Source: a virus
Virus record (IMG/VR): IMGVR_UViG_3300047444_000436
Location: 1-40,299 of that record
Length of the DNA: 40,299 bases
Strand: one strand, 5' to 3'
Under the pieces are notes generated by a model. That model saw nothing but the letters and a program-made list of their open reading frames with translations. It had not been told where the DNA came from and ran no database searches. The translations under genes were made by a program, and so were the position numbers. This document shows, in pieces, positions 4,478 to 31,037 of the stretch (position 1 is the first letter of the stretch; each line of letters begins with the position of its first letter).

Positions 4478-4696
4478 ATGATGACCAAGAACACGCTCCT
4501 CATTCTCGGCCTGATTGCCTGTGTTCTGACCGCCCTCGGCGCAGCCGCGAAGATGCTGCCCGTCGACTGGAACGCGCCCATGACTGTCCTCGGCATCGTC
4601 GGCACGGCCGTCACGGGATTCCTCGCGCAGCGGCCGCGGCATGCCCGCATTGTGCAAGACCACGACGACGCGATCCATACACACTTGAACGACTGA
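4478..4696 (+). CDS. small two-helix membrane protein
   Basis: A 72-residue protein with two hydrophobic segments (about residues 5-25, LLILGLIACVLTALGAAA, and 34-50, MTVLGIVGTAVTGFLA) separated by a short polar turn, then a basic and His-rich tail. Length and layout fit a small holin-like or inner-membrane protein, but its place in the early block, far from the late-block membrane genes, argues for an early membrane function such as host takeover or exclusion. There are two adjacent ATG codons at 4478 and 4481. Function unknown. Confidence 0.55.
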   Translation: MMTKNTLLILGLIACVLTALGAAAKMLPVDWNAPMTVLGIVGTAVTGFLAQRPRHARIVQDHDDAIHTHLND

Positions 4697-6903: not shown

Positions 6904-7539
6904 ATGGACCTGAGTGATGCGGCGCTGGCGCGGGAGATTGAACATCTTGAACGCTGCGACGGTGAGTTCTTTGAGGTCACGCCTGTTTACCTCACGGATG
7001 CTATCGACCTCTTGCGCCAAGCCGTGTCTGACCGGGCGGAACTCGTGGCCCTCCGCGCCACGGTCGCGGGATTAGAAGCTGCACGCAAACTGAATGACGC
7101 CCTGCGGTGTTCGACGTGTGGCACGGCGGCGTATCAGCCGAACGAACGGTGCGCGGACCACTTGTCATGGGCCGATCGGCTGGCGACGGCTCGGACCATG
7201 CAAGACGCGTGGACAAAACGCGCCTATCAAGCCGAACGTGAAACTGCTGCGTTGGAGGCCGCACGAGACAAGGCGCTGGAGTTCTGCGATGCCGGAATCA
7301 GCAGCGAGGAGCCTGAGTGGGCGTGCTTCCATATACTCGCCATCTTAGAAGGCAGAGACGTTGAGGCAACATCTGAGCGGCACACGATCCCTGACGCCAT
7401 CGGCTTTCTCTCACGGCCGGATCGTGAGCATGTGCTTCGTAATCTTGGGTGGAGCGACGAAGCGATAGCCAAATCAGAAGCGCCGCTTCTCCGGCCTGTC
7501 GCGCCGGACGTGGTGCCGCCAGCGGACGTGGTAGAATAA
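6904..7539 (+). CDS. hypothetical protein with coiled-coil and Cys/His patch
   Basis: A 211-residue protein, largely helical (AALAREIEHLERC, RAELVALRATVAGLEAARKLNDAL), with a small CSTC...CADH patch near residue 70-85 that could bind a metal. ATG 6904 is preferred to the ATG at 6880 that overlaps the dcm stop, because AGGAGG at 6891-6896 is ideally spaced for 6904. It ends in a Pro/Val-rich tail. No family recognised; it resembles the accessory 'ea'-type proteins of phage early regions only in composition. Confidence 0.6.
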   Translation: MDLSDAALAREIEHLERCDGEFFEVTPVYLTDAIDLLRQAVSDRAELVALRATVAGLEAARKLNDALRCSTCGTAAYQPNERCADHLSWADRLATARTMQDAWTKRAYQAERETAALEAARDKALEFCDAGISSEEPEWACFHILAILEGRDVEATSERHTIPDAIGFLSRPDREHVLRNLGWSDEAIAKSEAPLLRPVAPDVVPPADVVE

Positions 7540-7609: not shown

Positions 7610-8125
7610 ATGACCGAGAGCCAGTCTACCAAACCCCGTGGAAGATCTGTAAGTCAGAGCGTGCCGCTGCGATTTTGGCAGCATGTGAGTAAGACCGAAT
7701 CGTGTTGGATGTGGACTGGATTTCGCGATCCGTTTGGTTACGGAAGAATCCATATCAACTGCCGCAAATATGCTGCTCACCGGCTTAGTTGGGAACTGCA
7801 CAATGGTCCCATTCCTACGGGAATGCTTGTCTGTCACCACTGCGACGTTACGTCTTGTGTGAACCCGTCGCATCTGTTCCTTGGCACGGACGCCGATAAC
7901 AGCCGCGACAAGATGGAAAAGGGACGCTCCACGAAGGGCATGAAGCATGAACGTGCTGTGAAGGGTATGAAGCATGGCCGCGCCGTACTGAATGATGACC
8001 TCGTGCGCCAACTCAGAGCATCCCACGAACAAGGTGTGACCATTTCAGAACTAGCTAAACAGGTCGGTATGTCGCCGTCAGGCGTCGGCCATGTGATTCG
8101 TCGATACCGATGGCGTCATATTTAG
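7610..8125 (+). CDS. HNH homing-type endonuclease
   Basis: A 171-residue HNH_3-type endonuclease. CWMWTGFRDPFGYGRI (32-47), HRLSWELHNGPIP (57-69), the core VCHHCDVTSCVNPSHL (74-89) and N97 form the complete beta-beta-alpha-metal site. Two tandem KGMKHxRAV units follow (109-126), then a helix-turn-helix-like C-terminus (ELAKQVGMSPSGVGHVIRR), as in DNA-recognition tails of homing nucleases. It is less G+C-rich than its neighbours, which suggests recent acquisition. ATG 7610 is preferred; an in-frame ATG at 7550 would add 20 residues that resemble nothing in the family. It stands alone rather than inside a visible intron. Confidence 0.85.
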   Translation: MTESQSTKPRGRSVSQSVPLRFWQHVSKTESCWMWTGFRDPFGYGRIHINCRKYAAHRLSWELHNGPIPTGMLVCHHCDVTSCVNPSHLFLGTDADNSRDKMEKGRSTKGMKHERAVKGMKHGRAVLNDDLVRQLRASHEQGVTISELAKQVGMSPSGVGHVIRRYRWRHI

Positions 8126-8807: not shown

Positions 8808-9151
8808 CCCCACAGCAGTTGCGCGCCAAGGCCGATGCCTTGGACGCCCTCAGACCGGGATTCGATGGTTGGGCTGATGGTTGGGACACGTGGGACGAGA
8901 ATGGCGTAAAGGTCTGCTCACAGTGCCGCGTTCGCAAGATTGCCGACACGCAGCATCGCCACGGTTGCCGCAACGTCGCCCTCTCCGCCTCCCTCCATGA
9001 CGGCGCACAAGCCCTCAGACGGGAAGCGGCGCTCATCGAGTGGCTTGGTGACAATGAAACCTGTGGCGACCATTTGCTGCTGAATACACGCGGCGTTGTG
9101 CTCTCGAAACTCTCCGCGTTGCACGCGGACCCCGCAGGACAGGAGCGATAG
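8804..9151 (+). CDS. hypothetical Cys-containing protein
   Basis: A 115-residue protein with a helical N-terminus (TPQQLRAKADALDALR), a possible metal site VCSQC...HRHGC (about residues 38-53) and a helical C-terminus. It starts in an ATGA overlap with the previous gene and is followed by the 559-residue gene after no gap. The Cys/His cluster makes it the fourth or fifth small putative zinc protein in this block. No family recognised. Confidence 0.55.
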   Translation: MTPQQLRAKADALDALRPGFDGWADGWDTWDENGVKVCSQCRVRKIADTQHRHGCRNVALSASLHDGAQALRREAALIEWLGDNETCGDHLLLNTRGVVLSKLSALHADPAGQER

Positions 9152-10831
9152 ATGCCCGACATTAACGAGCTACAACAGGTCATCGCGGAACTCGGCTGCG
9201 TGTTCAAGACCGCCGCCACGAAGGTCAAGCAGGTGCAGTATCCCTCAGTCGCCTCAGTGGATGATCCGCCAGAAATCGCGGCGACGAAGGCGCTGCCGGG
9301 CACGGAGCCAACTAAGTCCGGCGAGTTCTGGAACATCAGCGAACGCCCCTACGATGACAGCGGCCCGTGGGTGCCCGTGTCGAATCAGGGCTGCAACATC
9401 CTCGCGGGAGGCGGCGAGACCTGGCTGGCGACGCACGGCACGCTGACCTTCTGGAACGATGGCCGGAAGGTGGAAGGCGACCCGCAGCCGGGGTGTGTCG
9501 CCGGAGACTACGCCAGCGGTCGCGGCTCATATGCCCCGGACGGCACGAAGGGCTACGTGCTCGACCAGCAGAACTCCAAAGGACTCCGGCTGTATGCGCC
9601 GGACCACTCCATCACCGCCGAGTATCCCGACGCCATGCCCCGCGGTAATTCCGTCTGCGTCGTCAACGCGACTCAAGCCCTGTTTGTCATCTGGAACACG
9701 GGCCAGATCGCGACCGTGGGCGGCTTGCCGGTCCCGCAGGTCTATCCGGGTCCGGTCGGCTGGCCGAATGCCGTATTCGCCGCGGGACGGTGGTGGATCG
9801 CCTACCAAGCCACGCCCAACTTCATCACCATCCTGCATCCCTTCGATGACCTGACCGTGGGCTGGAAGATTCCGAATACCCCGCCCGCGTTCTACCTCAA
9901 GGCTCGAGCGTTTGGCGACAGCATCGTGGTCGTGATTGCCAAGACGCAAGGCGACACTCCCGCCGAGACGTTCACGTTCGACGCGGCACACCCGCCGAAG
10001 CTCGAACTGGCACCGCCGACGCCGGTTGATCCGCCGAACCCGGGCGCGCCGCCGTCCAAGCCGATCGTGACCGGCGCGACGATTCCAACCGTCGTGGCAC
10101 CAGGCCGCAAGATCATCCGCGTGCTGTTCAAGGGCCACAATCTCCGCACGGGCGACTTCAACCCGTGTCCTGGCGATTGGGAAGTCATCGACGACGGCAC
10201 GAACGCCTCAGACGCGATTGTGTGGCCGCCCACGGACCCGCCGACCTACAAGCCCGTGCTGGTGACGTTCAACTCGACGCAGGGTGACAGCCTGAAAACG
10301 CACATGCAGGGCATGTTCGGCGGCGGGAACAACCCGCATGACAGCCTCCCGTCCGCGATCGAGAACTGCGCGATCCAGTGGCAGAAGGATCATGCCCTCC
10401 CGGCCGTGATGGTGCGCTACTGCGACGGCGCGTTCCCACCGGGATTCTTCGCCACGTTCAACAAGGGCGACGTGGTGGGCATCCAAGCCTATTGCGACCC
10501 CGCCGTGGACGACAACGCCGCGGCGCTCGTCCGGATCGAATCGTGGATTCAGCAGGTGCCGAACGGCGTGGACGTGATGTTAGTACGGGGCTTCGACGTG
10601 AAGTACTGGCCGCAATCACTCCCGATCAAAGATCGCGTCCAACGGATGCTCGACTTTCAGGTGGGGCTCTCTGAACTCGAGCGCAAGTACACGCAGATCA
10701 CGTATTCCGCGCTGTTCTGTTGGGGCCGGTGGGCCGTCCACCCGGTCAACACGTCGATCATCATCGACGGCGGCGGGTACTACTTTCAAGAGTCCAATGA
10801 CTTTGCTTGGAACCAGTGGGCCAACCTATGA
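9152..10831 (+). CDS. two-part protein: beta-propeller-like N-half, hydrolase-like C-half; function unknown
   Basis: A 559-residue protein preceded by CAGGAG. Residues 55-285 are rich in short beta strands with repeated aromatic and Gly turns (GETWLATHGTLTFWNDG, GRWWIAYQA), suggesting a propeller or jelly-roll. A Pro-rich linker (about 285-305) joins a C-terminal region (about 315-559) with alternating strands and helices (VLVTFNSTQGDS, DHALPAVMVRYCDG, DVVGIQAYCDP, DVMLVRGFDVKYWP, YSALFCWGRWAV) that reads like a TIM-barrel hydrolase. No catalytic pair can be assigned. It ends the main early run and overlaps the ribbon-helix-helix gene. It could be a surface-glycan or cell-wall enzyme. It has no signal peptide. 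Confidence 0.55.
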   Translation: MPDINELQQVIAELGCVFKTAATKVKQVQYPSVASVDDPPEIAATKALPGTEPTKSGEFWNISERPYDDSGPWVPVSNQGCNILAGGGETWLATHGTLTFWNDGRKVEGDPQPGCVAGDYASGRGSYAPDGTKGYVLDQQNSKGLRLYAPDHSITAEYPDAMPRGNSVCVVNATQALFVIWNTGQIATVGGLPVPQVYPGPVGWPNAVFAAGRWWIAYQATPNFITILHPFDDLTVGWKIPNTPPAFYLKARAFGDSIVVVIAKTQGDTPAETFTFDAAHPPKLELAPPTPVDPPNPGAPPSKPIVTGATIPTVVAPGRKIIRVLFKGHNLRTGDFNPCPGDWEVIDDGTNASDAIVWPPTDPPTYKPVLVTFNSTQGDSLKTHMQGMFGGGNNPHDSLPSAIENCAIQWQKDHALPAVMVRYCDGAFPPGFFATFNKGDVVGIQAYCDPAVDDNAAALVRIESWIQQVPNGVDVMLVRGFDVKYWPQSLPIKDRVQRMLDFQVGLSELERKYTQITYSALFCWGRWAVHPVNTSIIIDGGGYYFQESNDFAWNQWANL

Positions 10832-11040
10832 GCATCGCCTGGCATGACGAGGTACCAGTGACACACGCAAATACCCGCAGGGTGAAATTGGTGGTGGCCG
10901 TGTCGCCAGACGAAATTGACTGGCTGAAACACGCAGCCAAACTCAGCCACGAATCGGTTGCGGAGTACACGCGTAAAGCGATCAACGCCAGACTCGTGAA
11001 ACAAGGTGTGGACGCCGTGTTGTTGAGAGAGCAGTCGTGA
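10828..11040 (+). CDS. ribbon-helix-helix DNA-binding protein
   Basis: A 70-residue protein with the Arc/MetJ-type layout: a basic beta strand (RRVKLVVAV, residues 17-25), a first helix (PDEIDWLKHAAKL) and a second helix (SVAEYTRKAINARLVKQG). Such proteins dimerise through the strand and bind operator DNA. It starts in an ATGA overlap with the 559-residue gene and directly precedes another small gene, near the point where early and late blocks converge. A regulatory role in the early-to-late switch is a reasonable inference; no operator repeats are evident nearby. Confidence 0.65.
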   Translation: MSIAWHDEVPVTHANTRRVKLVVAVSPDEIDWLKHAAKLSHESVAEYTRKAINARLVKQGVDAVLLREQS

Positions 11041-11250
11041 ATGCCCAGGCTCCGCGGACTCACCGTCTCAGCCGTTGAACGCGCGGCCGTCGACACGACA
11101 AAGGCCGCCGTCGGCATCGTCGACGACGACGACCTGTTGCGCCTGGCGCTCTATCGCTTCTGCGATCACGTGCTTGGAGACGGGCTCCCGCTGCACGCGT
11201 TCGACCTACCGCTAAAAAAAGTTCCGGGCTGGCGCAAGATCGGGCGCTAA
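11041..11250 (+). CDS. hypothetical small protein, possible partner of the RHH protein
   Basis: A 69-residue protein whose ATG immediately follows the stop of the ribbon-helix-helix gene. A helix-rich centre (DDDLLRLALYRFCDHVLGDG) and C-terminal basic segment (LPLKKVPGWRKIGR) are visible. The N-terminal LRGLTVSAVE could be a strand, making a diverged ribbon-helix-helix possible. Its stop codon (TAA, 11248-11250) overlaps the stop of the converging minus-strand gene. No family assigned. Confidence 0.45.
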   Translation: MPRLRGLTVSAVERAAVDTTKAAVGIVDDDDLLRLALYRFCDHVLGDGLPLHAFDLPLKKVPGWRKIGR

Positions 11251-11453
11251 CGGATCCGGGGAATCTGCGGGTCCATCCCGATAATTCCCGTGGCCCGGAG
11301 CAACGTGACGACAATGATCACGATCGCCACACCCCAGACAATGTTCGTCACGAGGGCGGGCGTGCCCGGCGCGAACTTGCCGATCGCCCAGACCGTGAGC
11401 GCGGCGAAGATGACCACGACCAACAGCAACACGAAGAATTCTACGATGCCCAT
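11247..11453 (-). CDS. small two-helix membrane protein, holin candidate
   Basis: A 68-residue protein with two hydrophobic segments (FFVLLLVVVIFAALTVWAIG, about 5-25, and LVTNIVWGVAIVIIVVTLL, about 34-52) and a short C-terminal tail. ATG 11453 follows GGGAG with good spacing; the upstream frame extension has no such site. It is the last gene of the late block. Length, topology and position after the probable ejection proteins fit a holin, though small two-helix inner-membrane proteins of other functions look alike. The 4-base overlap of convergent stop codons at its end is notable. Confidence 0.6.
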   Translation of the reverse strand: MGIVEFFVLLLVVVIFAALTVWAIGKFAPGTPALVTNIVWGVAIVIIVVTLLRATGIIGMDPQIPRIR

Positions 11454-11464
11454 TGTGAACTCCC

Positions 11465-11854
11465 TCACTTTTTCAGTGACATTAGCCAATAGAGCGTCCG
11501 AATAAATCCCGCGGCCCCGCCGACGAGCGCCGCGCCGACGATCCACGTCCGCTTGACCGTGCCGAACGTCACGGGCTGATCGTCAAAAGGGCTTGGACGG
11601 CCCCTCCCGACCGGGATCCGCACGCTACCGTCGCCCTCGTTGCCGCCGTCGCCACCGTCACGGACGGAGTAGACGCGCTTTTGGAGCCCGCGGATCTGTT
11701 CGCCCTGGACCGACTGTTCAATCTGGACGAGCCGCACACGATCATCGATCTGGCGTTGGCCCGCCTCTAGGCGATTGGCCTCATCTGTAATACGGTCTGA
11801 AAGGAAGTCTCTCAGGCTGTCAAGATCCGTTGAAGAAATGGGCATCAGTTCCAT
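11465..11854 (-). CDS. coiled-coil protein with C-terminal membrane anchor, lysis-accessory candidate
   Basis: A 129-residue protein: an N-terminal coiled coil (SLRDFLSDRITDEANRLEAGQRQIDDRV, about 13-60), a Gly-rich linker (about 66-85) and one C-terminal transmembrane helix (WIVGAALVGGAAGFIRTLYW, 104-123) with a SLKK end. This layout recalls XhlA-like or antiholin/spanin-type lysis accessories. AAGG lies five bases before ATG 11854; a second ATG at 11845 is possible. It sits between the 1234-residue virion protein and the holin candidate, the usual place for lysis genes, though no endolysin is recognised. Confidence 0.6.
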   Translation of the reverse strand: MELMPISSTDLDSLRDFLSDRITDEANRLEAGQRQIDDRVRLVQIEQSVQGEQIRGLQKRVYSVRDGGDGGNEGDGSVRIPVGRGRPSPFDDQPVTFGTVKRTWIVGAALVGGAAGFIRTLYWLMSLKK

Positions 11855-11861
11855 TCAGCCT

Positions 11862-14800
11862 TCATCGACGCGGCAGCGCCCATTCGTTGCCGAACGGTAT
11901 CGACGCCGCCGTGGGCCCGAACATCAGGCCGCGCGTATCAAACTCCGACGGCGCCACCGGATACAACTTCTTCGTCGCCTGACCGTATGGAATAAACTGC
12001 GAAATCCACCGCGCCACCGACGCCTTCGGAGACTTCCGCAGGTCGATGTTCTCGAGCCCCGTAGGCAATGGCAGCGCGTGTTCATACCCGGCCAGGAGCG
12101 CCATGAAGGCGTCCGTCGCATCCTTCGCGGGCGTCGACAACATCCGGCCCGCGCGGAATGCCGCCTCGGCGGGAATGGTCAACCCGCCCGTCATCAGCGG
12201 CGCCCATTCCGCGGCGTTGGCGTAGTCCGCGCCCGGCCCGTTCGGGCCCGTCATGGCGCCGAGCGCGCCCGCGCCGACAATCCCCGCGCCGCCGATGATC
12301 TGGCGCGCCCGCGCGACTTCTGGACTCGCGCCTGACCAGCCGCGGACGGACTTCAGCCCGCCGACGCCGGGCGTGTACTCGAGTGCGCGTTCCATGAGGT
12401 TGATCGGAATCTTCGCCACCGGCATCAGCCAGTTCCCCACGGGCGACCGCGCAAACGCCAAGAGCTTCTGCAACGATTGGTCGTTCGGCTCATTGGTGAA
12501 CGTGTTGCGATCGGCCTCGAGCGGCGAGAAGCCCGCGCGTTTGTACACGCCTTTGGCGCCTTCCGTGATCGCGCCGAGCGCGCGCGACGGCAGCGCCAAC
12601 GCGTTCGCCACCGGCCCGGTAAACGCCGTGCCGCGCGTCACGTTGCCGCGCTCGATGTGGGCGATGTTCGGATTGCGCCACGCCGACGCGGTATCCTCGA
12701 GCGTCCGGCGCGACAAGAGCGCATCCATCAGCGCCTTCGCCCGATCGCTGCGGCCGGAGAGGAGATCCGTCGCCGCTTGTGTCCCCATCTGGCCGACGTC
12801 GCCCATGATTTTCTTCGGCAGCGCCGCGCCCGACAGGATGTTGGCGTACCGTGCCGCGCGCAGGGGCTCGAGCGCGGCCGCCAAACTCCGCGTGTGAATC
12901 CCGTGCCCGGCCGCCAAACCCATGAGCGCGCCAAGCGCGCCGCCGCCGAGCGCGCCCGCCCGCGGATCGCTGTCGTCAATCATCGGGCCCACGACCGCGC
13001 CCGTCGCCGCTCCGGCCAGCGTCGACGCCAGCCGTGGATCAATGAAACCCGCCTCGCCGCCGCCGCTCCCACCGACGTCGCCCCACCAGTGATTACCGGG
13101 CTCGATGCCGTGCGCCGCCGCCAAGTCTGCGATCGTTTGGTCGACCTTCGACGGACCCGCCGCCCCGGCGCCTGGCGCCTCGAGCGAATCCCAGTGGGCC
13201 CGCATGGCTTTATTCACGTCCTCCATGAAGGACGGCAGATCGCCATTCCACCGATGCGCGAACCGCGGATCTTCCTGAAGCGCCTCGAGCATCCGATCGG
13301 CGGTGAGCCCGGCCTTCGCGTTGACGATGTTCGGAATGCCCTTGAACCCGCCGGACTGCGCCAGTCCGGACGGCATTTTCATCGTCTGACCCGCGCGCTT
13401 GCCGCGCTTGATGACCGTCTCGGCGCCGGGCATCTTGCCCTTGCGGAGTGATTCAAATAGGTTCCGCAGTTCGCCCGTGTAGCCCTTGTCGCGCAGGTCA
13501 AAGCCGCCGTTGTCAGAAATCGCCTTGAGCAATTCCTGGGGTGACGTGCCCGCGTCGTGCGCGGCCGCGCCCTGTTCGTCGTGGTACTGCCGGATGCTGT
13601 CGACCTTCTCGGCGTAGAGTGACGCCAAATCATCCGCCGAGCCCGAGTAGCCGTTCGCCCGCGCGTCCGCGAGAACCGACTGGAAGTGATCCTCAAACCC
13701 CTTCGGGATCGACTTCTTCCCCGAGCGCGACAACGCGTCGAGCGCCGCCAATGATGCGGGCTTGGGTGCGCGCGGCCCTTCGAGCGCGGCCAGTGACGCC
13801 GGAAGGGGCGCCGATCCCGGCGGCCCATCGCCCTTGCGGAACCAGACCGGATCGGTTTCCCCAGGCCAGCCGTCGCCCGCGGCCGCGGGCGCACTCGGCG
13901 CCGCCACGGGCTGTTCCGGCGCGACGTCCACGCCACGCTCGAGCGCCGGAGCCGCCGCCTCGGCCTCGCGCGCGGCCGCCATCGCGTCAAGCGCCTTCAG
14001 CGCGCCCCGTTCCTTGCTCCACAGGAACCGATTGTCGGTCAACTGCTTCGGCGTGTAGATCGGCTTCGCCCCTTCAACCCCCAAATCCGCCATTCGGACG
14101 AGCGGTTTGCCCACTTGGCGCGCGCGCCACACCGGCGACCCCAGAATCTCGTCCGCCTGGCCGCCCATGACCGCCCGCAACCGATCTTCCGCCGTCAACG
14201 GCGCCGTCCCGGGCATTTCGAACGGCGGCACGCCCGAATTGACGTCGAACGCGGGCGAGTTCCACTGATGCGGCAGCGTCCGCGGGCCCGAAGGCGTCCC
14301 CGGCGGCGCAGGAGCCTCTACGGGGAGTGCCGGAACGTCCGCACCCGCCGACGTGGACGGCAGGTCGATCGTGTCGGCCGCCGCCAGCGGGCCCGCCGGA
14401 GCCTCGCCTGGCGCCTCGATCGGAAATGGCGGTTGATCCGGACGCGCTGCCAGCAGTTCGTCGAGCGCCGTCATCCCCCCTGTCGGACGTACGCCGGGCG
14501 GCGCTTCCATTGGCGTGACGCCTGTGTCGGGCATCGGCCCGAACCCGCTTCGGCGGCCGCGAGACGGCGACGGCAGGAGTGGCGGCCGCGCGTCGGCCGG
14601 ATTGACCGGCGCGTCACGCATGGCCGCTTCGAAGTCGACATTGGCGTGCGGATCGGCAGTATCGAGCCCCGCCAAGAGCTTCGTCAGTTCGTCGTCGTGA
14701 ATCGGCGCCGACGTCGAGTAATCCGGTGCCAGCGGGTACGAGCTCGTACGGTCCGTCGCGTTCACGGCGGCCAGTGGCGCGTCGAGTTCGGGAAACGTGA

Positions 14801-15566
14801 GTTTCTTCGGCAGGTTGAGCGGATGGTTCTGCCAGTACGTCGACCCGACGTCCGGCGCCACCGGCGGCAACGTGGCATTCTCCGAGCCCAACACGCCCGC
14901 CAGCCCGCGCGACTTGGCGACCGGCCGTTCCGCGGCCATCGCCGCTTCAGCTTCCGCGGCCGCCGTGCGGCCCGCCCCGATCCGCGTGAGCGCGCGACCG
15001 CCCGCGCCCATGCCCGCGCCGACAATCGCGGGCAGCGTCAGGTCATTCAGCGCGGGCAGCTTGCCGTGCATGGCATCGTCGACGGTAAGGATGCCCGTAT
15101 TGAGCGCCGCTCCGCGCGCCGCGCTCGAAAGGTATTTCGCGCCCTTGAAGATCGGACCCATCGGCAGCGCGCCGACTCCGGCCGCCACCGCAATTGCCGC
15201 CGGATCCGCGCCCTCGCCACGGATCCATTGCGCCAAGCCTTCACCGGCGCCACCGATCGCGCCACCAGCTACCGTGCCCGGCCCAGGCACGTCCGACGCC
15301 AAGCCCGCCAACACGCCAGAGCCGACGCGCACGACGTCCGCGCCGATCTTCCGCGGATGCGTCAATTCGTCGACGAGCCAATCCCACCCGCGGCGCCCGG
15401 CCGACGGCGGCGGCACACTCGTATCGACTGTGGATGGCGCCGGTTTCAGGTACGGCACGTCAGCCCAGACGTCGGCCGACGTGGATTTAGGCGCAGACGT
15501 GGGCACCGGCGCCTGTCGCGGCGCCGGGAGAACGGTGTTCCAATCCCATCCCTGCGGATCCGCCAC
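11862..15566 (-). CDS. very large Ala/Gly/Pro-rich protein, probable internal virion (DNA-ejection) protein
   Basis: A 1234-residue protein starting at GTG 15566 with GAGG just upstream. It alternates disordered Pro/Ala stretches with Gly/Ala zippers (TVAGGAIGGAGEGLAQW, about 100-116; AIVGAGMGAGGRAL; GALGGGALGALMGLAAGHG, about 870-890) that could insert in or cross membranes. A folded section (about 620-780: FEDHFQSVLADARANGYSG, ADRMLEALQEDPRFAHRW) resembles segments I recall from giant phage DNA-transfer proteins. Size, composition and position after the tail genes fit an internal core/ejection protein of a podovirus. No lytic or transglycosylase motif was identified. Confidence 0.65.
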   Translation of the reverse strand: MADPQGWDWNTVLPAPRQAPVPTSAPKSTSADVWADVPYLKPAPSTVDTSVPPPSAGRRGWDWLVDELTHPRKIGADVVRVGSGVLAGLASDVPGPGTVAGGAIGGAGEGLAQWIRGEGADPAAIAVAAGVGALPMGPIFKGAKYLSSAARGAALNTGILTVDDAMHGKLPALNDLTLPAIVGAGMGAGGRALTRIGAGRTAAAEAEAAMAAERPVAKSRGLAGVLGSENATLPPVAPDVGSTYWQNHPLNLPKKLTFPELDAPLAAVNATDRTSSYPLAPDYSTSAPIHDDELTKLLAGLDTADPHANVDFEAAMRDAPVNPADARPPLLPSPSRGRRSGFGPMPDTGVTPMEAPPGVRPTGGMTALDELLAARPDQPPFPIEAPGEAPAGPLAAADTIDLPSTSAGADVPALPVEAPAPPGTPSGPRTLPHQWNSPAFDVNSGVPPFEMPGTAPLTAEDRLRAVMGGQADEILGSPVWRARQVGKPLVRMADLGVEGAKPIYTPKQLTDNRFLWSKERGALKALDAMAAAREAEAAAPALERGVDVAPEQPVAAPSAPAAAGDGWPGETDPVWFRKGDGPPGSAPLPASLAALEGPRAPKPASLAALDALSRSGKKSIPKGFEDHFQSVLADARANGYSGSADDLASLYAEKVDSIRQYHDEQGAAAHDAGTSPQELLKAISDNGGFDLRDKGYTGELRNLFESLRKGKMPGAETVIKRGKRAGQTMKMPSGLAQSGGFKGIPNIVNAKAGLTADRMLEALQEDPRFAHRWNGDLPSFMEDVNKAMRAHWDSLEAPGAGAAGPSKVDQTIADLAAAHGIEPGNHWWGDVGGSGGGEAGFIDPRLASTLAGAATGAVVGPMIDDSDPRAGALGGGALGALMGLAAGHGIHTRSLAAALEPLRAARYANILSGAALPKKIMGDVGQMGTQAATDLLSGRSDRAKALMDALLSRRTLEDTASAWRNPNIAHIERGNVTRGTAFTGPVANALALPSRALGAITEGAKGVYKRAGFSPLEADRNTFTNEPNDQSLQKLLAFARSPVGNWLMPVAKIPINLMERALEYTPGVGGLKSVRGWSGASPEVARARQIIGGAGIVGAGALGAMTGPNGPGADYANAAEWAPLMTGGLTIPAEAAFRAGRMLSTPAKDATDAFMALLAGYEHALPLPTGLENIDLRKSPKASVARWISQFIPYGQATKKLYPVAPSEFDTRGLMFGPTAASIPFGNEWALPRR

Positions 15567-16889: not shown

Positions 16890-17225
16890 TCAATACAAAT
16901 TGTGCAGCGCGTTCAGCGACGGTCGATCTGTCGGCAATCCGCGGCCGCCGCCAACCACGAATCGGCGGCCCTCCGCATTGGCGATGGCCTCATTCTTCGC
17001 CAGATCGCCAAAGAATTCTTCCCACGAACTATTACCGATAGCCGACGCCTGACCCTGCGCGTCATCCCGCAGATGCTCGAAGCCCACCGACGCCGGAATC
17101 CCCGACGTCGGATCTTCCAGATCCGAGAAGTCCTGCGCGGCCAAGAGCGCCCGGCGCGGCGCGAGAAAGTCCTGACCGGCGCCTTCCCCCATCCGCAGCG
17201 CCGCGAGACTTGTGGGCATCGGCAT
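16890..17225 (-). CDS. hypothetical late protein
   Basis: A 111-residue soluble protein (FLAPRRALLAAQDFSDLEDPTSG, SWEEFFGDLAKNEAIANAEGRRF). It starts in a TGATG overlap with the upstream gene. A central acidic helical part and a C-terminal Gly/Arg segment are seen. No family recognised; probably a minor virion or assembly protein by position. Confidence 0.5.
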   Translation of the reverse strand: MPMPTSLAALRMGEGAGQDFLAPRRALLAAQDFSDLEDPTSGIPASVGFEHLRDDAQGQASAIGNSSWEEFFGDLAKNEAIANAEGRRFVVGGGRGLPTDRPSLNALHNLY

Positions 17226-17713
17226 CAGTAAATCCTTCCCCGCTGTTGCATCAGCGCCGAGAGCGCGCGACTCGACGCGGGAATGTGCCGTTGGCCCAGA
17301 TTCGCGTCCACCGGCGTTTGCGGCTCGAGCCCGTAGCCTTCGCTGCCCGCCCCACCCCCGCGTACGCTCGAGAGTGCCCGCATGGATGGCGCGGCCGCAA
17401 ACGTCGGCGCTTCCACCGGCACGCCCGCCGTCTCACCCGGCGCCGGGCCACCGCCCCCACCGCCCCCGCCACTATCCACGGCAACCGGCGGCGGCGGAGT
17501 CGGCGCGGGCGGCGGCGTCGCCGCTTGGGCGGCCTTCGCGGCAATCTCGTCTTGCGCCGCCTTAATGTACTGCTGCGCCTGGCCGACGTTATTCTTCCCG
17601 ACGTGCTGCGTCAGGTTAATCCATGATTCCTGACTCAGTTGCTTTTGCAGCGCGTCAAACCCGCCGACCGAGTTCGCGTAGTCGATAACCGCCTGGCGGC
17701 CCTTCCCGGCCAT
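17225..17713 (-). CDS. hypothetical late protein with Gly/Pro low-complexity centre
   Basis: A 162-residue protein with a helical N-terminus (QAVIDYANSVGGFDALQKQLS, NNVGQAQQYIKAAQDEIAAKAAQA), a Pro stretch, an eight-Gly run (about 82-90) and a disordered C-terminus with Arg-Ala. Its start abuts the stop of the upstream gene and its end overlaps the next start. Likely a minor virion component, by context only. Confidence 0.5.
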   Translation of the reverse strand: MAGKGRQAVIDYANSVGGFDALQKQLSQESWINLTQHVGKNNVGQAQQYIKAAQDEIAAKAAQAATPPPAPTPPPPVAVDSGGGGGGGGPAPGETAGVPVEAPTFAAAPSMRALSSVRGGGAGSEGYGLEPQTPVDANLGQRHIPASSRALSALMQQRGRIY

Positions 17714-18622
17714 CTAGTACGCCTGACCGTAGAACGCCAAGAGCGAGGAGAGCCGCTGATTCGCCGCTTGCGTCTGCGCGATCTTCCATGACCCGGCCAG
17801 TTGCGCGTTGGTTTCCGCCGCGCGCGCGTCGGCCTGGAACTGTTCATCTTCCAATTGCGCCTTACGGGCGGCGTGTTGCTGGACGAGACTGCGATCGGTC
17901 GTCGCCCCTTCCCCGAGTGCCGTGGACACGAGCCCCTTCAGCGCCGCGGAGTGAATGCCGGATCCACTGATGCCCCGTTCGGCCATCGCCGCGTCGGCGT
18001 CACGCACCCCGGCCTGAAGATTCTGGCCGATGTTTTCCTTCGCGCCGGTTTCCGCCGCCATGTCCGCCGCCGTCAGATGGTTCGGATCCCACGCGGCCGA
18101 ATCGATCAACCCGCGCAGCGACGGCGCGCTCACCGTCGGCGGCCCGCCCGTGTCGGCGCCGGGCCCGGACCCGCCGAACATCGACAACAGAAATGGCTCG
18201 AGCTTCGCCATCGACGCGAGTTTCGCTTGCTGCATCTGTGATTGCAGCGCCAGTGATTGCCCGAATTGCGTGTTGGACGTGTCCGCGCTCAATTGGCCGC
18301 TGTTCTGCGCCGTCCACGCCGCAAGCTCCTGACTGTAGTTCGGATTGAGCGTGCGACCGTCCGGCATGTAGACGGACGGGAGCGGAATCGACTGGCTTTT
18401 CGGCGTCGAAAAACTTGTGGCGCCGAGCGCGGCCATCGACGGCGACACCGGCGTCGAGGGCGGCGCGGCCGAGTAGGGCGCGACCCCCTGATAGCCCGTC
18501 GGCGGCGTGGTCCCAGGCGCCGGAGTCTTGGGCTTGGGAGTGCCCATGTACGGCAGCATGGACAGGTACGACGAGGACGACGCCCCGCCGTAGTCTCCGC
18601 CGTAATAGTCCTGATAGCCCAC
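17714..18622 (-). CDS. probable internal virion protein
   Basis: A 302-residue protein with a Tyr/Gly/Ser N-terminus (DYYGGDYGGASSSSYLSML), a Pro/Thr section, then a long helical part with GVRDADAAMAERGISGSGIHSAALKG (about 205-230) and a C-terminal coiled coil (RKAQLEDEQFQADARAAETNAQL). The 'AERGISGSG..A' element recurs, from memory, in podovirus internal virion proteins. AGGGGGAC precedes ATG 18622. It is the first gene after the tail fibre and heads the low-complexity group, which fits the ejection module. Confidence 0.6.
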   Translation of the reverse strand: MGYQDYYGGDYGGASSSSYLSMLPYMGTPKPKTPAPGTTPPTGYQGVAPYSAAPPSTPVSPSMAALGATSFSTPKSQSIPLPSVYMPDGRTLNPNYSQELAAWTAQNSGQLSADTSNTQFGQSLALQSQMQQAKLASMAKLEPFLLSMFGGSGPGADTGGPPTVSAPSLRGLIDSAAWDPNHLTAADMAAETGAKENIGQNLQAGVRDADAAMAERGISGSGIHSAALKGLVSTALGEGATTDRSLVQQHAARKAQLEDEQFQADARAAETNAQLAGSWKIAQTQAANQRLSSLLAFYGQAY

Positions 18623-18680: not shown

Positions 18681-21056
18681 TTAGGAGCCGACCGCGCCGC
18701 CAATCGCCCGCCAGCCGATCGCCTTCGTGACCGCGCCGGAAATCTGATCGATCGCCAACGTCAGGAAGCACGCCGCGCCCGACGCGGGCAGATTCGTTCC
18801 CGTGACCGCCTGTTCCGTGCCGTCATTCACACTGAAGTACGCCGTCGGCGTGCCGCCTTGCCGCACGAAGCGAATCCGGACGACATACGCCGTGTTTGAG
18901 GCGATAGACCCCAACGTCGAGGTCGTGCTGCGGCCTGTCGTGCCCGCCGAACTACGGCACACCCCTTCCCACACCGCGTTCCCATCCGAGCAGTACTGGA
19001 TCGCCATCAGGTTCGTCGTGCCCGTGTTGGTGGGCGCCATGTTCACGTCACTCGCGCCGCTCGTCGTCCACCCGAACCAAATGCGCGTGACCGTGACGGC
19101 CGTGGGATCCGTGAACAGGTAGGCCCAGATGTCAATGTCGTCTGCGAGTAAGCCCTGATTGTTCGTGGTCAGTGACTCGAGTTTCGCCACCGTCGCCGCG
19201 CCGGTCGTCGTGCCGACGCCAAACACTTTGCCGTTCACCGTCGTTTTCGACGCGGTGCCGGACTGCGTGAACGAGTTGACGCCCGCATTGCCGGTGATGC
19301 CACCGTAGCCAGTCGCACCGCCGAACGCTTGTGAGGCCGTCGCAATCGCGGGAATCATCAGGAACGGGAGCGGCCCGGCCACGTTCGAGGGCTCAGGCAC
19401 GGGATACCAGCCATAGGCCGTCGATCCGCCGCCGACCTTTCGGTACACATAGCCCGTCACGGTATCGAAGTAGAAATTCCCAATCGCCGCCGACACGACG
19501 CCTTGCGGATGGCCGGAACCAGAGATCGGCAGGAGCCCAGTCACCCACGCCGGATTCGCCGCGGCGCCTTGCGTCTTGAGAAACTGTCCCGACGTGCCCG
19601 CGGGCAAGCGCGCCCACGCACTCGCGTCCCGGTAGAGCAGATCCCCCTGCGCCGGAGAGCCGATGAAGTCCAATGTCTCCGACAGCGTGCATTCTTCGAC
19701 GGAGCCACCGCCGCCGCTTTTACGGCCGATGATGCGCGCCGTGTTCACCGTGTCCTGAATTTCCGCGTACAGCACCTTCGACGCCGACAGCACGCCCGAC
19801 GTCACATGCGCGATCCCGGTGCCGGTTGCGCGCTTGATGACCTTGCCCGTCGTGCCCGAGAACAACACGACTTCGCTGTCGACGCTCGAGCTTGGCCCGG
19901 CGACGTCACCCGTGCCGGACGACGGCGTGACCCACGACGGATCCGCCGCGGGCCCGTTCGTCTGCAAGAGATTCCCAGACGTGCCCGCGCCGAGCCGTGC
20001 CCATCCCGACGCCCCGCGGTAGAGAATGTCACCTTGCGCCGCGGAGCCGATGAAATCGAGAATCTGCGACAGCGTGTTTTCTTCCACACTCCCGGCGCCC
20101 GCGGTGCGACGGGCCAGAATCCGAGACGTGGCCGACACGTCCTGTAGTTCGGCGTACGTGACCTGCGCGACAGAAAAGACGCCCGCTGTCGCGTGCACGA
20201 CGCCGGTACCCGTCGCCCGTTTGATGATGCCGCCGCTCGTGCCGTTGAACAGCACTATTTCCGAGTCGACCGACACGCCAGGCCCGGTCACGGCCCCGCC
20301 AGAGGGCGGCGCCCACGACGGATCCGCGCCCGCGCCACCCGTCGCCAACACGTACGTTGCGGTGCCCGCGGGCAACCGTGACCAGCCGGACGCGCCACGA
20401 AAGAGAATGTCGCCCTGCGCGGCGCTCCCGACAAAATCCAGAATCTCGGTCAGTGTGCATTCTTCCGCCGGGCCCGCACCGCTGGACTTGCGACCAAGGA
20501 TGCGAGACGTGGCCGTGAAGTTTTGCAGGTTCACCCACGCGAGGAGCCCCGTGACCGCGGCCGACTGCGACAGGTCGATCGCGCCGAAGCCAACCGCCGT
20601 GCCCGAGCGCCGCAACACCTGAAAGTCTGACGCCGCGACGATCGACGCCAGATCGGCCGTCGCATTCCCCGTGACCCCCTGCACCGACAGCGCCGTGCCC
20701 TGCGCGAGTTTCGAGAAGGGCAGCCGATTCGTGACGTCGCTCGTCGACAAGTCGACCTGCGTTTGATTGCCGTCACCACGGAGAAAGTGCGTGTGGACGC
20801 CATCGAGCGCCAAACTCGTGATGGGCAACAGGCCCGTGACGTCGGCCGAGCCGAGATTGACTTCGGACTGTGTGCCGTCGCCGCGGAGAAAGTGATGGGT
20901 GTTCCCGTCAAGCGAGACGTCCCCGAGATTGCCGCTCCCCTTCGGTTGCAGTTGTTTCGTGACGTTGTAAATGCGGAGTAGGTTATCTTCGATCGACTGC
21001 GCGACCTGTGGCGTCCACTCCGCGCGCGAAATAGGATACGGCAGCGAGAACGGCAT
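18681..21056 (-). CDS. tail fibre protein with tandem repeats
   Basis: A 791-residue fibre. A short N-terminal attachment-like region (1-45) is followed by two copies of a 35-residue FLRGDG unit (50-119), then three copies of a roughly 128-residue unit (184-310, 311-439, 440-506 partial), each with S/A-R-I-L/I-G/A-R-K/R, LDF-I/V-GS-A/P-AQGD and GTGxxH elements. The C-terminal 200 residues (AFGGATGYGGITGNAG, AYVVRIRFVRQGGTPTAYFSVNDG) look like a compact beta domain for receptor binding. It is trimeric in comparable phages (family knowledge). It starts in a TGATG overlap with the LamG protein gene. Confidence 0.8.
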   Translation of the reverse strand: MPFSLPYPISRAEWTPQVAQSIEDNLLRIYNVTKQLQPKGSGNLGDVSLDGNTHHFLRGDGTQSEVNLGSADVTGLLPITSLALDGVHTHFLRGDGNQTQVDLSTSDVTNRLPFSKLAQGTALSVQGVTGNATADLASIVAASDFQVLRRSGTAVGFGAIDLSQSAAVTGLLAWVNLQNFTATSRILGRKSSGAGPAEECTLTEILDFVGSAAQGDILFRGASGWSRLPAGTATYVLATGGAGADPSWAPPSGGAVTGPGVSVDSEIVLFNGTSGGIIKRATGTGVVHATAGVFSVAQVTYAELQDVSATSRILARRTAGAGSVEENTLSQILDFIGSAAQGDILYRGASGWARLGAGTSGNLLQTNGPAADPSWVTPSSGTGDVAGPSSSVDSEVVLFSGTTGKVIKRATGTGIAHVTSGVLSASKVLYAEIQDTVNTARIIGRKSGGGGSVEECTLSETLDFIGSPAQGDLLYRDASAWARLPAGTSGQFLKTQGAAANPAWVTGLLPISGSGHPQGVVSAAIGNFYFDTVTGYVYRKVGGGSTAYGWYPVPEPSNVAGPLPFLMIPAIATASQAFGGATGYGGITGNAGVNSFTQSGTASKTTVNGKVFGVGTTTGAATVAKLESLTTNNQGLLADDIDIWAYLFTDPTAVTVTRIWFGWTTSGASDVNMAPTNTGTTNLMAIQYCSDGNAVWEGVCRSSAGTTGRSTTSTLGSIASNTAYVVRIRFVRQGGTPTAYFSVNDGTEQAVTGTNLPASGAACFLTLAIDQISGAVTKAIGWRAIGGAVGS
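19539..20507 (-). repeat. tandem repeat region of the tail fibre (about 128-residue unit, 2.5 copies)
   Basis: Unit 1 spans 20507-20127, unit 2 20126-19740 and unit 3 (partial) 19739-19539. Shared elements are the ARK/GRKS start, GSVEE/GPAEE, LDFIGSAAQGDILYRGASGWARL, VDSEVVLF-SGT, and IKRATGTG. The copies are diverged but clearly related, so they probably arose by duplication. They could change fibre length by recombination. Confidence 0.75.
20700..20909 (-). repeat. pair of 35-residue FLRGDG repeats in the tail fibre
   Basis: Residues 50-84 and 85-119 of the fibre share FLRGDG, the SADVTGLLP/TSDVTNRLP block and a hydrophobic SLALD/SKLAQ end. The unit is short and lies N-terminal to the large repeats, as shaft-type repeats do in tail fibres. 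Confidence 0.65.
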
Positions 21057-24000
21057 CAGCGACGACCATTCTCAAACACCGGCGCAATTTCGTGCCCGTA
21101 CACCATGAAGCCCTTGCCGGGCGTTTCCATGCGGTAGTCGAGACGGATCAGGTTGTCATCGCCCAGATTGTCGTTAATCTGGCGACCGAGCGTCAGGTCG
21201 ACGTCGATCGGATCCGGCCGCAACAGGTCCGTGACGTCCGCAATCTGTTCATCCGTCAGGCACGAGAAGAACACGGCCCACTCGTCGACCAGTTCCGCGC
21301 ACAACATTTCACCCAAGAGGCCCAAAGGGGACGACTGATTCAAGTGGTTATTAAACAGCGTGTCGATGGCGCCGACTTCTTTTCCGGTGTAGAGAAACGT
21401 CCCCGCCGGTTGCGTGCCGACATAGAACGTCGCGCGCCCGTCGCCGTCGACGGTCATCCACAGCAGATACTCGGCGCCCACGTTGAGCGTCACCGTCGCA
21501 GAGGCCGTTGGCGTGTTCGTGCCCGCATCATCGAAACCGAAGTAATCGAAGCGAACCGTGGTATCCGAGAGCCGAAACAGGTACCAGCCTTGACCGTGTT
21601 GACCGTCGCGGTCGTAGTCCGCAAGGGCGTTCCACCCGTCAAGACTCGTCAAGTTGTTCGCCGGGATCACACCGAACATGACCGTAAAGTTCGTTGCGGG
21701 CATCGTGATTTTCGTGAACGCCGCCCGCCCCTGTGTCGCGTCCGTCAGTCGATACCCGTGTCCGCCGTCACCCACAATGCCGGTCGTCTGGAAGTCCACA
21801 CCCGTTGCGTCGGTCATCACCAGGTCATGCGCGTTGGCGGTACTGTCGACGAAGGTAGCACCGGACGCCGCTTCAAGACGCCATTCCGATTCCGGCACGA
21901 ACGCCGCAATCAGCGCATGGTAGGCCGCCACGTTCGCCGCCTGACCGGCGACGAAGATCGCCAGCATGTCCGACACCGCCAATGCCTGATTGAACGTCGA
22001 CACTTCATCCACCAGAGACGCGCGCAGGTACTCGCACGCCAGCGTGTCCGAGTCGGTCCCCCCGAAGTCCGGCACGTGCCCGAATACGCTGTCGAAGATC
22101 AGATCGCCGTAGTACGTGAACGTCCCATCAGCTACGCCGTTCAGCGTGAACGTGCCGACGCCACTGGCATCGACCGAAATACCGATCACCACGTCAACGC
22201 CCACGGGAATCAGTGTGTTGTTGGCCTGTTCGACATAGGCGCCATCGACGAAGGCGGAGTACACGACTCGCACAAAGCCAGGCGTGTCGTCGAACAAGAA
22301 GAAACCTTGAATTTCCTCGCGCGTGTCGCACATGAGCGTGCCGTACCCCGTGCCACCCTGCGCCAGCGCCGTGAGCCACCAGACCTGCGCGAACGGACCC
22401 GCGCGGAAGTCCAACGGATTCGCCAGTGTGCAGCGATCCCCGCTGATGCCGATGCCGTAGGATCCGCCGCCGATGGCGCCCGGCTGATGGTACCGCACCG
22501 TGTTTCCCGTCGGCATCGTCACCGTATGCCCGTGGCCGGACCAGTCTCGAGCCGTCAGGGCGCCCGTTTCCTCGAACCGCCAGTACGCCTCCGGCGCCAG
22601 CGAGAGGATCTTGCGCGAGAACGTGTCCGGCGTGACCGGCTTCGGCACCGCGTACGCCAGATACGGCTGCACTTTCACCACCGGATGCGGGCCCGTGATG
22701 CGCTCGAGTGCCTGAATGGCCGTCAGGAACGACGGTTGACCCCAGAAATGGTTAATGTCCGGCGCCCCGGCCGAATACCACTTCGGAGAGAAGCGCGACC
22801 CAATCGGCCACGTCACCCCGGCGCCCGAGACGTCCGAGAGCGTCGTCTGATTTTCCGCGTAGAGATACCCGTCAGCCCCGGCCACCGTTGGAATGAGTTG
22901 ATCCTGCCCGCCCACCAGCAGCGCGCGCGCCGTCGGCGTGAACGCGGCCGTATCGTCCGGCCCCATCCATTCGCCTTGATCGATGAAGTACTTGACCGTG
23001 CGGTTCTCCACGCTCGAGCCCGCAGACGCCAGTGTCAGTTCGTAGGCATTCGTGAGAGGATTCCACCCGCCAAACGCGTACTGGAACCGATCTTGATTGA
23101 ACGTGTCGCCCTTCGTGAACCATCCGTCGACCTGCGACCGCGAGATACAGACGACGCCCGAATCGTCCCACCGATACACGCCGTCGAGCCCGAGCCAGTA
23201 CGCCACGTCACGGATGATGACGACCGATTTCTTCGCCACGCACCCGGAGCCCTCCGGCGACACGATGACAACCTGAAAGTCCTCCGGCGACGAGCCGATG
23301 ACCTTCAGCACGCGGTTGCGCTTCAGGAGCCCGAGCGCGTCCCGTCGCGGCGCCAGGCCCGTGATGCCGAATTCGTCCTCCCCCTTCGGGTACGCGGGCA
23401 GCGAGTTCTCGGCGGGCCACGCGTAGAACTGATTGATTTCCGTGAACAGCGCGTCGTCGCGTTCGCGCTTCGCGCCCGAGACGCCCCACACGCGCGACTT
23501 CCACACACACGTCAGCGACAATTCCGTGCCCGGCACCGAGCCCGGCGGACACCCGAGCGCCGGATTCGCCGGGAACAGCGACAGCGACTTGTCGGACATG
23601 CCGTCCGTAATCGTCGTCGCGTGGTTGTCGTCGATCGTGATCCACTGAAACAGATCCGTGCCCCCGGCGGCCGTGCGATACAGCACCCGACAATTCACGT
23701 TCGGATCCGGCGACACTTCGATCTGAGACGCGGCAATGTCGTTATTCGCCAGCACGACCGCCAATGACGTCCCCGAGAGCGTCGACTGATTGACGATGTT
23801 GCCCGCGCCGTCTTTGACCGCAAACGCCACCGCGACCTGATACGAGCCCGTGAGTCCCACGCCACTTCCGGCCGCCAGCACCGGCGCCGACAACGGCGGC
23901 TGAAGGCCCGCGTGCCGCACGGTCAGATCGGACGGGTCGATCCACAGGTTCACCGTCGACGCGCCGGTAAAGAGGATCTGTTGATTCAGGACGGCGAACG

Positions 24001-24112
24001 AGCCTTGCTTGGTCGCGTCAATCGTGACGTCCGTAGGGAGCGTCAGCGTGACGACCGTGCCGTCGGTCTTGACGACTTGGAGCGCGCTACCGGCTTGGGC
24101 TATGGCAAACAT
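21056..24112 (-). CDS. tail protein with beta-rich nozzle-like part and two LamG-like domains
   Basis: A 1018-residue protein. Residues 1-500 are beta-rich (HAGLQPPLSAPVL, DLTVRH, FTEINQFYAWP, YPKGEDEFGITGLAPRRDALGLLKRNR, WLGLDGVYRWDD) and resemble podovirus tail-tube/nozzle or stabilisation proteins. Two Laminin-G/concanavalin-A-like domains follow: one from AYWRFEETG to LVDEVSTFNQAL (about 503-722) and one from EWRLEAASG to LVDEWAVFF (about 741-960). The duplication implies glycan-binding avidity. ATG 24112 forms a TGATG overlap with the preceding gene's stop; an in-frame upstream start at 24172 adds an improbable Cys-rich segment. Role inferred: tail structure with carbohydrate-binding ends. 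Confidence 0.65.
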   Translation of the reverse strand: MFAIAQAGSALQVVKTDGTVVTLTLPTDVTIDATKQGSFAVLNQQILFTGASTVNLWIDPSDLTVRHAGLQPPLSAPVLAAGSGVGLTGSYQVAVAFAVKDGAGNIVNQSTLSGTSLAVVLANNDIAASQIEVSPDPNVNCRVLYRTAAGGTDLFQWITIDDNHATTITDGMSDKSLSLFPANPALGCPPGSVPGTELSLTCVWKSRVWGVSGAKRERDDALFTEINQFYAWPAENSLPAYPKGEDEFGITGLAPRRDALGLLKRNRVLKVIGSSPEDFQVVIVSPEGSGCVAKKSVVIIRDVAYWLGLDGVYRWDDSGVVCISRSQVDGWFTKGDTFNQDRFQYAFGGWNPLTNAYELTLASAGSSVENRTVKYFIDQGEWMGPDDTAAFTPTARALLVGGQDQLIPTVAGADGYLYAENQTTLSDVSGAGVTWPIGSRFSPKWYSAGAPDINHFWGQPSFLTAIQALERITGPHPVVKVQPYLAYAVPKPVTPDTFSRKILSLAPEAYWRFEETGALTARDWSGHGHTVTMPTGNTVRYHQPGAIGGGSYGIGISGDRCTLANPLDFRAGPFAQVWWLTALAQGGTGYGTLMCDTREEIQGFFLFDDTPGFVRVVYSAFVDGAYVEQANNTLIPVGVDVVIGISVDASGVGTFTLNGVADGTFTYYGDLIFDSVFGHVPDFGGTDSDTLACEYLRASLVDEVSTFNQALAVSDMLAIFVAGQAANVAAYHALIAAFVPESEWRLEAASGATFVDSTANAHDLVMTDATGVDFQTTGIVGDGGHGYRLTDATQGRAAFTKITMPATNFTVMFGVIPANNLTSLDGWNALADYDRDGQHGQGWYLFRLSDTTVRFDYFGFDDAGTNTPTASATVTLNVGAEYLLWMTVDGDGRATFYVGTQPAGTFLYTGKEVGAIDTLFNNHLNQSSPLGLLGEMLCAELVDEWAVFFSCLTDEQIADVTDLLRPDPIDVDLTLGRQINDNLGDDNLIRLDYRMETPGKGFMVYGHEIAPVFENGRR

Positions 24113-29197: not shown

Positions 29198-29605
29198 TCA
29201 GCGATCGGTGCGGCCGCTGAAGATCGCGGCGTCCGCATCCGGCGCCATGCCCTCGCCAGGCACACGACGCATCGGCGGCGTGACACCCGTGCCCAATGGG
29301 ACCGCTTCGGCGGCATCACCCGTCATCTGCGTGCGATCAAACCGCTCAATCGACCGATGCTCGTGCCCTTCCTCGATCGGCGCGCATTGGTCCGCGCTGT
29401 CATGGCCTTCCACCGCGACCAGGTACTCCCCGTCCATGCCGGACGGCCCGAACGTGCCCATGCGCGGATGCTGTTGCTTGGCGAACCGGATCCAGTCCGT
29501 CGTCGAATGGTTCCGACCCGGTTTCAACACCATCTGGCGGCCGTTCTGTTGGATCGTCAACGGCTTTGTCGTGCGATTGATCAAGACACACTGTTCACCG
29601 ACCAT
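29198..29605 (-). CDS. small capsid-associated protein
   Basis: A 135-residue protein. The N-terminal half is beta-rich (CVLINRTTKPLTIQQNGRQMVLKPGRNHSTTDWIRFAKQQHPRMGTF) and of a type I recall next to phage capsid genes. The C-terminal half is Pro/Gly-rich and probably disordered. ATG 29605 follows GGAGGG. It lies directly after the capsid hairpin, and its stop is five bases from the next start. Confidence 0.55.
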   Translation of the reverse strand: MVGEQCVLINRTTKPLTIQQNGRQMVLKPGRNHSTTDWIRFAKQQHPRMGTFGPSGMDGEYLVAVEGHDSADQCAPIEEGHEHRSIERFDRTQMTGDAAEAVPLGTGVTPPMRRVPGEGMAPDADAAIFSGRTDR

Positions 29606-29625
29606 GATTGCCCTCCGAAAGACGA

Positions 29626-29659
29626 ACGGGCGGCAAGGGAGAGTCCCCCTGCCGCCCGT
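29626..29659 (-). terminator. hairpin after the major capsid gene, possible terminator
   Basis: On the minus strand ACGGGCGGCA pairs with TGCCGCCCGT and three more G-C pairs extend the stem across one mismatch, giving about a 13-14-pair stem with a small loop. It is followed by TCGTCTTTC, a weak T-tract. It is located between the major capsid stop and the next ribosome site. It could attenuate transcription and keep capsid mRNA in excess. Not a perfect terminator. Confidence 0.5.
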
Positions 29660-29687
29660 CGCCAACTACCAACGACCGGCCAGTTCC

Positions 29688-31010: not shown

Positions 31011-31037
31011 GTGAGTCCTCTATCTGTTCGTCGGGCT

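Follow-up and report, generated by a model that had tools for sequence, protein, structure and literature searches.

Modular proteins that act at surfaces typically combine a β-rich half with a proline-rich linker. Among the relatives of the virus analyzed here, genes for proteins that look β- or barrel-like by eye are found in three cases in direct overlap with M15 or M15-like endolysin genes, and these pairs are the closest systems with which to compare P0001, a 559-residue protein encoded in the window (the whole virus record, 40,299 bases).

The relatives comprise 22 records, 21 of them loci from a capsid search and one from a terminase search, and several are fragments. The closest, G002 (IMGVR_UViG_3300037350_000014; locus L024; capsid 84%), is syntenic with the window over most of the late block; among annotated phages, MW202554.1 has the nearest capsid, at 40% identity. 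The junction between the early and late blocks was gene-called in seven relatives, and parts of their late blocks were also examined. Barrel-like genes, a reading made by eye for genes with no Pfam match, were seen in four relatives, at the junction in G004, G009, and G010 and inside the late block in G002; by eye, none was noticed in G007, G021, or G022. In three of the four, the gene overlaps an M15 or M15-like gene by 4 bases (M15 assigned by Pfam in two and by eye in one):

L024:4193-6153, G002: M15_3 gene, the stop of which is overlapped, as ATGA, by the ATG of a 507-residue gene (L024:4630-6153)
L032:14956-16598, G009: M15_3 gene, in the stop of which a 385-residue barrel-like gene starts by GTGA
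L030:8508-10129, G010 (IMGVR_UViG_3300044712_000587): 115-residue gene, M15-like by eye and with no Pfam match, in the stop of which a 425-residue gene (L030:8852-10129) starts by ATGA

The 425-residue protein contains a GNA-type lectin (B-lectin) domain (best PDB match, 2.5e-11). The barrel-like proteins of G002, G004, G009, and G010 are mutually dissimilar in sequence, with z-scores from -1.01 to 1.40 over the six pairs. G004 has a barrel-like gene without an M15 neighbor and gave no M15 match, G007 has neither kind of gene, and in MW202554.1 the annotation shows no lysis gene over the 20 kb examined and nothing small beyond the large gene at the late end; the M15-plus-barrel arrangement is therefore not general, and the lack of a recognized endolysin is common in the group. 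G021 has an M15_3 gene on the late strand with no barrel-like neighbor. G022 carries its M15_4 gene (L034:14937-15335, - strand) about 1 kb away from the junction, opposite in strand to its late genes, which shows that this is a possible place for a lysis enzyme. Among the titles listed by a literature search, with subscription journals mostly outside its reach, none concerned the M15-plus-barrel-like arrangement.

Gene organization around P0001

Rightward genes extend from near position 1 to about 11.25 kb and include a DNA methyltransferase, an HNH endonuclease, and a weak polymerase-exonuclease match, and leftward genes extend from 40 kb to about 11.25 kb and include the terminase, portal, capsid, and other late genes. 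The labels "early" and "late" for the two blocks are taken from gene content and strand. The features at and around P0001 are as follows:

7610-8125, + strand: HNH endonuclease (PHROG scan), in the same variable segment as P0001
8804-9151, + strand: early gene 5' of P0001, 115 residues; its TAG abuts the P0001 ATG
9141-9145, + strand: AGGAG, read from the sequence as the likely ribosome-binding site 5' of the P0001 ATG
9152-10831, + strand: P0001, the whole orphan protein gene (open reading frame with ATG start, 559 residues)
10828-11040, + strand: early gene 3' of P0001, 70 residues; its ATG overlaps the P0001 stop as ATGA; weak NikA-like match below cut-off
11041-11250, + strand: final early gene, 69 residues, ending at the convergent junction

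P0001 is a genuine gene, beyond chance, and is wired into the early operon, which agrees with the frame drawn in the preliminary description. The longest stop-free run in 500 mononucleotide shuffles of the region was 375 codons, against 559 in P0001, and the GC content of P0001 at the three codon positions (0.61/0.47/0.83) resembles that of the genes for the capsid (0.61/0.43/0.87) and the terminase (0.63/0.47/0.81); the AGGAG and the tight junctions on both sides point the same way. The gene is the largest of the rightward early block, as first reported. It had also been placed at the end of that block, and it does lie near the tip, but two small genes (10828-11040 and 11041-11250) come after it, making P0001 third from the end. 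Assignment of the first of these as a ribbon-helix-helix gene was rejected, the NikA-like match being below the cut-off.

The synonymous codon fit of P0001, per codon, was -0.879 to the core early genes and -0.893 to the late genes, or -0.907 (standard deviation 0.010) when the late codons were sampled down to an equal number. The fit to the accessory neighbors at 5.5-11.3 kb was poorer than to either, at -0.978.

The early gene at 6904-7539 has a counterpart in G002 (z-score 6.1), where it is followed by one small gene and then the junction. Here, about 3.7 kb comes after it, in which P0001 is preceded by the HNH endonuclease and two small genes and followed by two more. This contrast assigns P0001 to a segment that is variable among close relatives and missing from the closest one.

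Layout and predicted structure of P0001

The protein divides into four parts:

9152-9343, + strand: residues 1-64, N-terminal helix (about residues 4-21) and loop (AlphaFold (AF2) model, hydropathy)
9344-10006, + strand: residues 65-285, β-rich half, propeller-like at most, with a weak internal repeat (AF2 model, repeat test)
10007-10102, + strand: residues 286-317, proline-rich linker, 34% Pro (composition)
10103-10828, + strand: residues 318-559, α/β half of mixed helix and strand (both AF2 models)

The secondary structure of the AF2 models and the composition of the linker bear out the earlier outline of a β-rich half, a proline linker, and a second half. The terms "propeller-like" and "barrel-like" that had been applied to the two halves describe secondary-structure impressions from poor models and not folds: the two single-sequence AF2 runs gave a mean pLDDT of 35.1 for the whole protein and 37.2 for the C-terminal half alone, for which structure prediction had been proposed and yielded no usable model. 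In the poor full-length model, residues 81-277 form strands without any helix of at least four residues, and a helix-strand-helix-strand core at about residues 455-524 is common to both poor models. Within the β-rich half, residues 93-173 align with residues 173-263 as an internal repeat, the score of which was matched by 4 of 300 shuffles; judged from sequence, the repeat would be consistent with propeller blades of 40-45 residues, without proving them. No signal peptide was seen by eye, in line with the preliminary description, and the highest hydropathy over 19 residues was 1.24, at residue 176. A Foldseek search with the full-length model returned no match at E up to 0.001, a result that the low model quality makes nearly meaningless.

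Searches for homologs of P0001

By sequence, P0001 is an orphan. Whole, it matched no Pfam, PHROG, or NCBIfam family (the last at E up to 1), and Peptidase_M15 was among the Pfam families without a match. The C-terminal half alone matched no Pfam family, no PHROG, and no PDB chain, each at E up to 10, and no glycoside hydrolase or TIM-barrel profile, while the N-terminal half matched no Pfam family; in the profile searches at E up to 10, the HMMER filters discard most matches above an E of about 0.1. Matches to antibody chains among the PDB sequences (E of 0.03 and above) were judged to be chance. The C-terminal half had been described as hydrolase-like, and no hydrolase family, catalytic motif, or fold was found for it in Pfam, PHROG, NCBIfam, PDB, or Foldseek searches.

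Nucleotide collections gave the same picture. With tblastn, neither the 50,697 phage records nor the 72,556 plasmid records yielded an acceptable match to whole P0001; the N-terminal half had none in phages at E up to 10, and the four phage matches of the C-terminal half (E of 2 to 6) were judged to be chance. Pattern scans, which require a shared word of about eight residues and so detect close relatives only, matched 6, 3, 12, and 33 stretches of IMG/VR with the whole protein, the C-terminal half, a 56-residue core, and a two-row alignment, respectively, and 23 and 42 stretches of GTDB genomes, none of which was confirmed. A search of the 22 related viral records, which include many fragments, found nothing at E up to 10, an empty answer that carries little weight without a known positive. 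A local tblastn with composition correction off and E up to 100 gave as its top result a match to L034 (57 residues, E of 0.012) that falls on the proline-rich linker and was dropped as low complexity, and next one to L037 (E of 0.079) that was also dropped, the matches there falling in different frames.

Comparison with genes of related phages

The barrel-like genes of the relatives were compared with P0001 directly. At full length, the z-scores for the genes of G002, G004, G009, and G010 were -0.76, -0.77, 2.28, and -0.34, and their hhalign ranks against P0001 were 313, 142, 10, and 149 of 481. The likeness to the G009 gene (its z-score reached in 6 of 200 shuffles) was not counted as evidence. 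A segment of the G004 gene with a z-score of 3.13 was likewise set aside; it ranked tenth among 596 background segments, and unrelated proteins outscored it, at up to 4.66.

The 507-residue gene of G002 resembles P0001 in outline. Both are orphans of similar length, with a β-rich N-terminal half, a proline-containing linker, and an α/β C-terminal half (by eye in G002). However, the G002 gene lies on the late strand, its start overlaps the M15 gene, it has no N-terminal helix region (by eye), and it shares no supported sequence similarity with P0001. A similar order of hydrophobic strands had suggested a single family, which was rejected on z-scores of 0.35 to 1.12 for the C-terminal halves together with the full-length and hhalign results; the 24% identity of the MAFFT pair comes from a forced alignment. 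The profile phrog_28394 matched the G002 gene weakly (E of 0.023; 1.1e-4 for one genome) and P0001 not at all, and it also matched 12 of 14 control genomes at E up to 10. The B-lectin gene of G010 resembles P0001 in having a β domain, a proline-rich linker, and a larger C-terminal domain and in lying near the late/early junction, but its N-terminal domain is a GNA-type lectin and it is on the late strand. Phage M15 endolysins would fill the same lysis role as that considered for P0001 below, whereas P0001, at about four times the size of the relatives' genes (132-162 residues), matches no M15 profile.

Possible lysis genes near the convergent junction

On the late strand, two genes face P0001 across the junction:

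11247-11453, - strand: 68 residues, with two segments that are strongly hydrophobic; holin-like in shape only (hydropathy); last gene of the late strand
11465-11854, - strand: P0002, 129 residues, with a moderately hydrophobic C-terminus (maximum hydropathy 1.40) and a counterpart in G002 (z-score 21.9)

The late strand runs past 11862 through P0002 and then the holin-like gene, which lies 416 bases beyond the P0001 stop. P0002 has no 19-residue window above 1.6, a usual transmembrane threshold, and is not clearly a membrane protein; the candidate orthologue at L026:5929-6294 was not borne out.

The preliminary description saw no other endolysin in the window, and the scans concur. No lysis family was matched at E below 0.01 by the window proteins in PHROG scans (overlapping sets of 10, 10, 30, and 10, with some short open reading frames outside them), and neither M15_3 nor M15_4 (PF08291 and PF13539) was matched in the window, the same scan finding M15_3 in 3 of 18 records and M15_4 in one of 18. 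A match to phrog_17214, annotated "endolysin" (E of 0.045), falls on the low-complexity gene at 17225-17713 and was rejected. Thus no endolysin was recognized among the scanned genes of the window, which is a lack of recognition and not absence.

Possible roles of P0001

In the reading that we rank first, though it is tentative and doubtful, P0001 may be a fast-changing accessory phage protein that binds or cleaves glycans at the host envelope and works together with lysis. This reading draws on its position at the junction, the lack of a recognized endolysin, and the type of gene found next to the endolysin in three relatives, and not on similarity. The β-rich half would recognize a wall or surface glycan, the proline-rich linker would let the two halves move independently, and the α/β half would cleave or bind the glycan. 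Carrying no visible signal peptide, the protein would collect in the cytoplasm and reach the wall by way of the holin-like protein, taking the role of the M15 endolysin and β/barrel-like pair of the related phages. The better fit of its codons to the core early and late genes than to its accessory neighbors speaks for this. Against it, the place in the early operon predicts early expression, which is unusual for a lysis enzyme; P0001 has no supported homology to the relatives' genes and matches no enzyme family, their barrels were assigned by eye only, and the arrangement is not general. The lysis or cell-surface role raised in the preliminary description therefore stands as far as the neighborhood goes, being compatible with the holin-like gene, the M15 pairs of the relatives, and the G022 gene, and falls short in that no hydrolase family, motif, or fold came with it. 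A bolder form, which we consider improbable, is that P0001 founds a new family of wall-degrading lysis enzymes, with a propeller-like binding half and an α/β catalytic half, encoded on the early strand in place of the M15 endolysin, and that the M15-plus-barrel overlap is a two-enzyme lysis unit, the second member of which is freely exchanged between unrelated proteins.

Two other functional readings were weighed, each of which we hold to be rather unlikely. P0001 could be an adhesion or depolymerase protein of the virion, of the tail spike or fiber class, encoded outside the late block. By eye, a similar layout is seen in the late-block gene of G002 that lies between the orthologues of the window late genes at 18681-21056 and 17714-18622; the N-terminal helix of P0001 could be an anchor, and its codon use is near that of the late genes. 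P0001, however, belongs to the early operon, on the strand opposite the structural genes, and has no PHROG match, and a likelier adhesion module is an insert of roughly 500 residues in the 1038-residue late protein of the window. Trimeric coiled-coils and β-helices were looked for in P0001 by eye only. Its junctions, which abut or overlap early genes, speak for an early intracellular protein, acting in host takeover, counter-defense, or nucleic-acid metabolism and brought in with the HNH endonuclease segment; so do the DNA methyltransferase and HNH endonuclease of the early block, the lack of a visible signal peptide, and the absence of the segment from the closest relative. Yet no nuclease, nucleotide, or other family in Pfam, PHROG, or NCBIfam matches P0001, and its β-rich half and proline linker resemble modular proteins that act at surfaces. 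That P0001 is instead a non-enzymatic or decaying orphan with no selected role in infection seems quite improbable: no acceptable relative was found in the searched phages, plasmids, IMG/VR, GTDB, or 22 related records, as such an orphan would have it, but the frame is uninterrupted for 559 codons, its codon bias is core-like, and its junctions are intact.

If the envelope-acting reading is true, the searched family libraries have missed, in P0001, a phage protein active on walls or surfaces; if it is false, P0001 counts among the ordinary orphans found in variable phage segments. The M15-plus-barrel-like overlap in the relatives is a more useful lead than P0001 itself, and M15 endolysin genes overlapped by differing modular, barrel-like proteins could be searched for new enzymes active on walls or surfaces.

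Other features of the window

The 1038-residue late protein (21056-24172, - strand) contains an insert of about 500 residues that is absent from its G002 orthologue. The insert contains two related repeats of about 210 residues (z-score 15.3; 0 of 500 shuffles) and is possibly an adhesion module; Pfam Laminin_G_3 had no match in the window. A 1234-residue late protein (11862-15566, - strand) has a glycine-zipper-like stretch at about residues 848-892, below Pfam cut-offs, and its C-terminal third is the part best conserved in G002 and G004. In the early block, a 72-residue protein (4478-4696, + strand) has a Pfam SLATT_fungal match just under the cut-off (24.5 of 26.5 bits). Two frames of 891 codons each run antisense to late genes, at 21092-23767 and 29208-31883 (both + strand); their position-specific GC (0.81/0.47/0.61 and 0.76/0.50/0.66, respectively) is unlike that of the coding genes here, and both are probably spurious.
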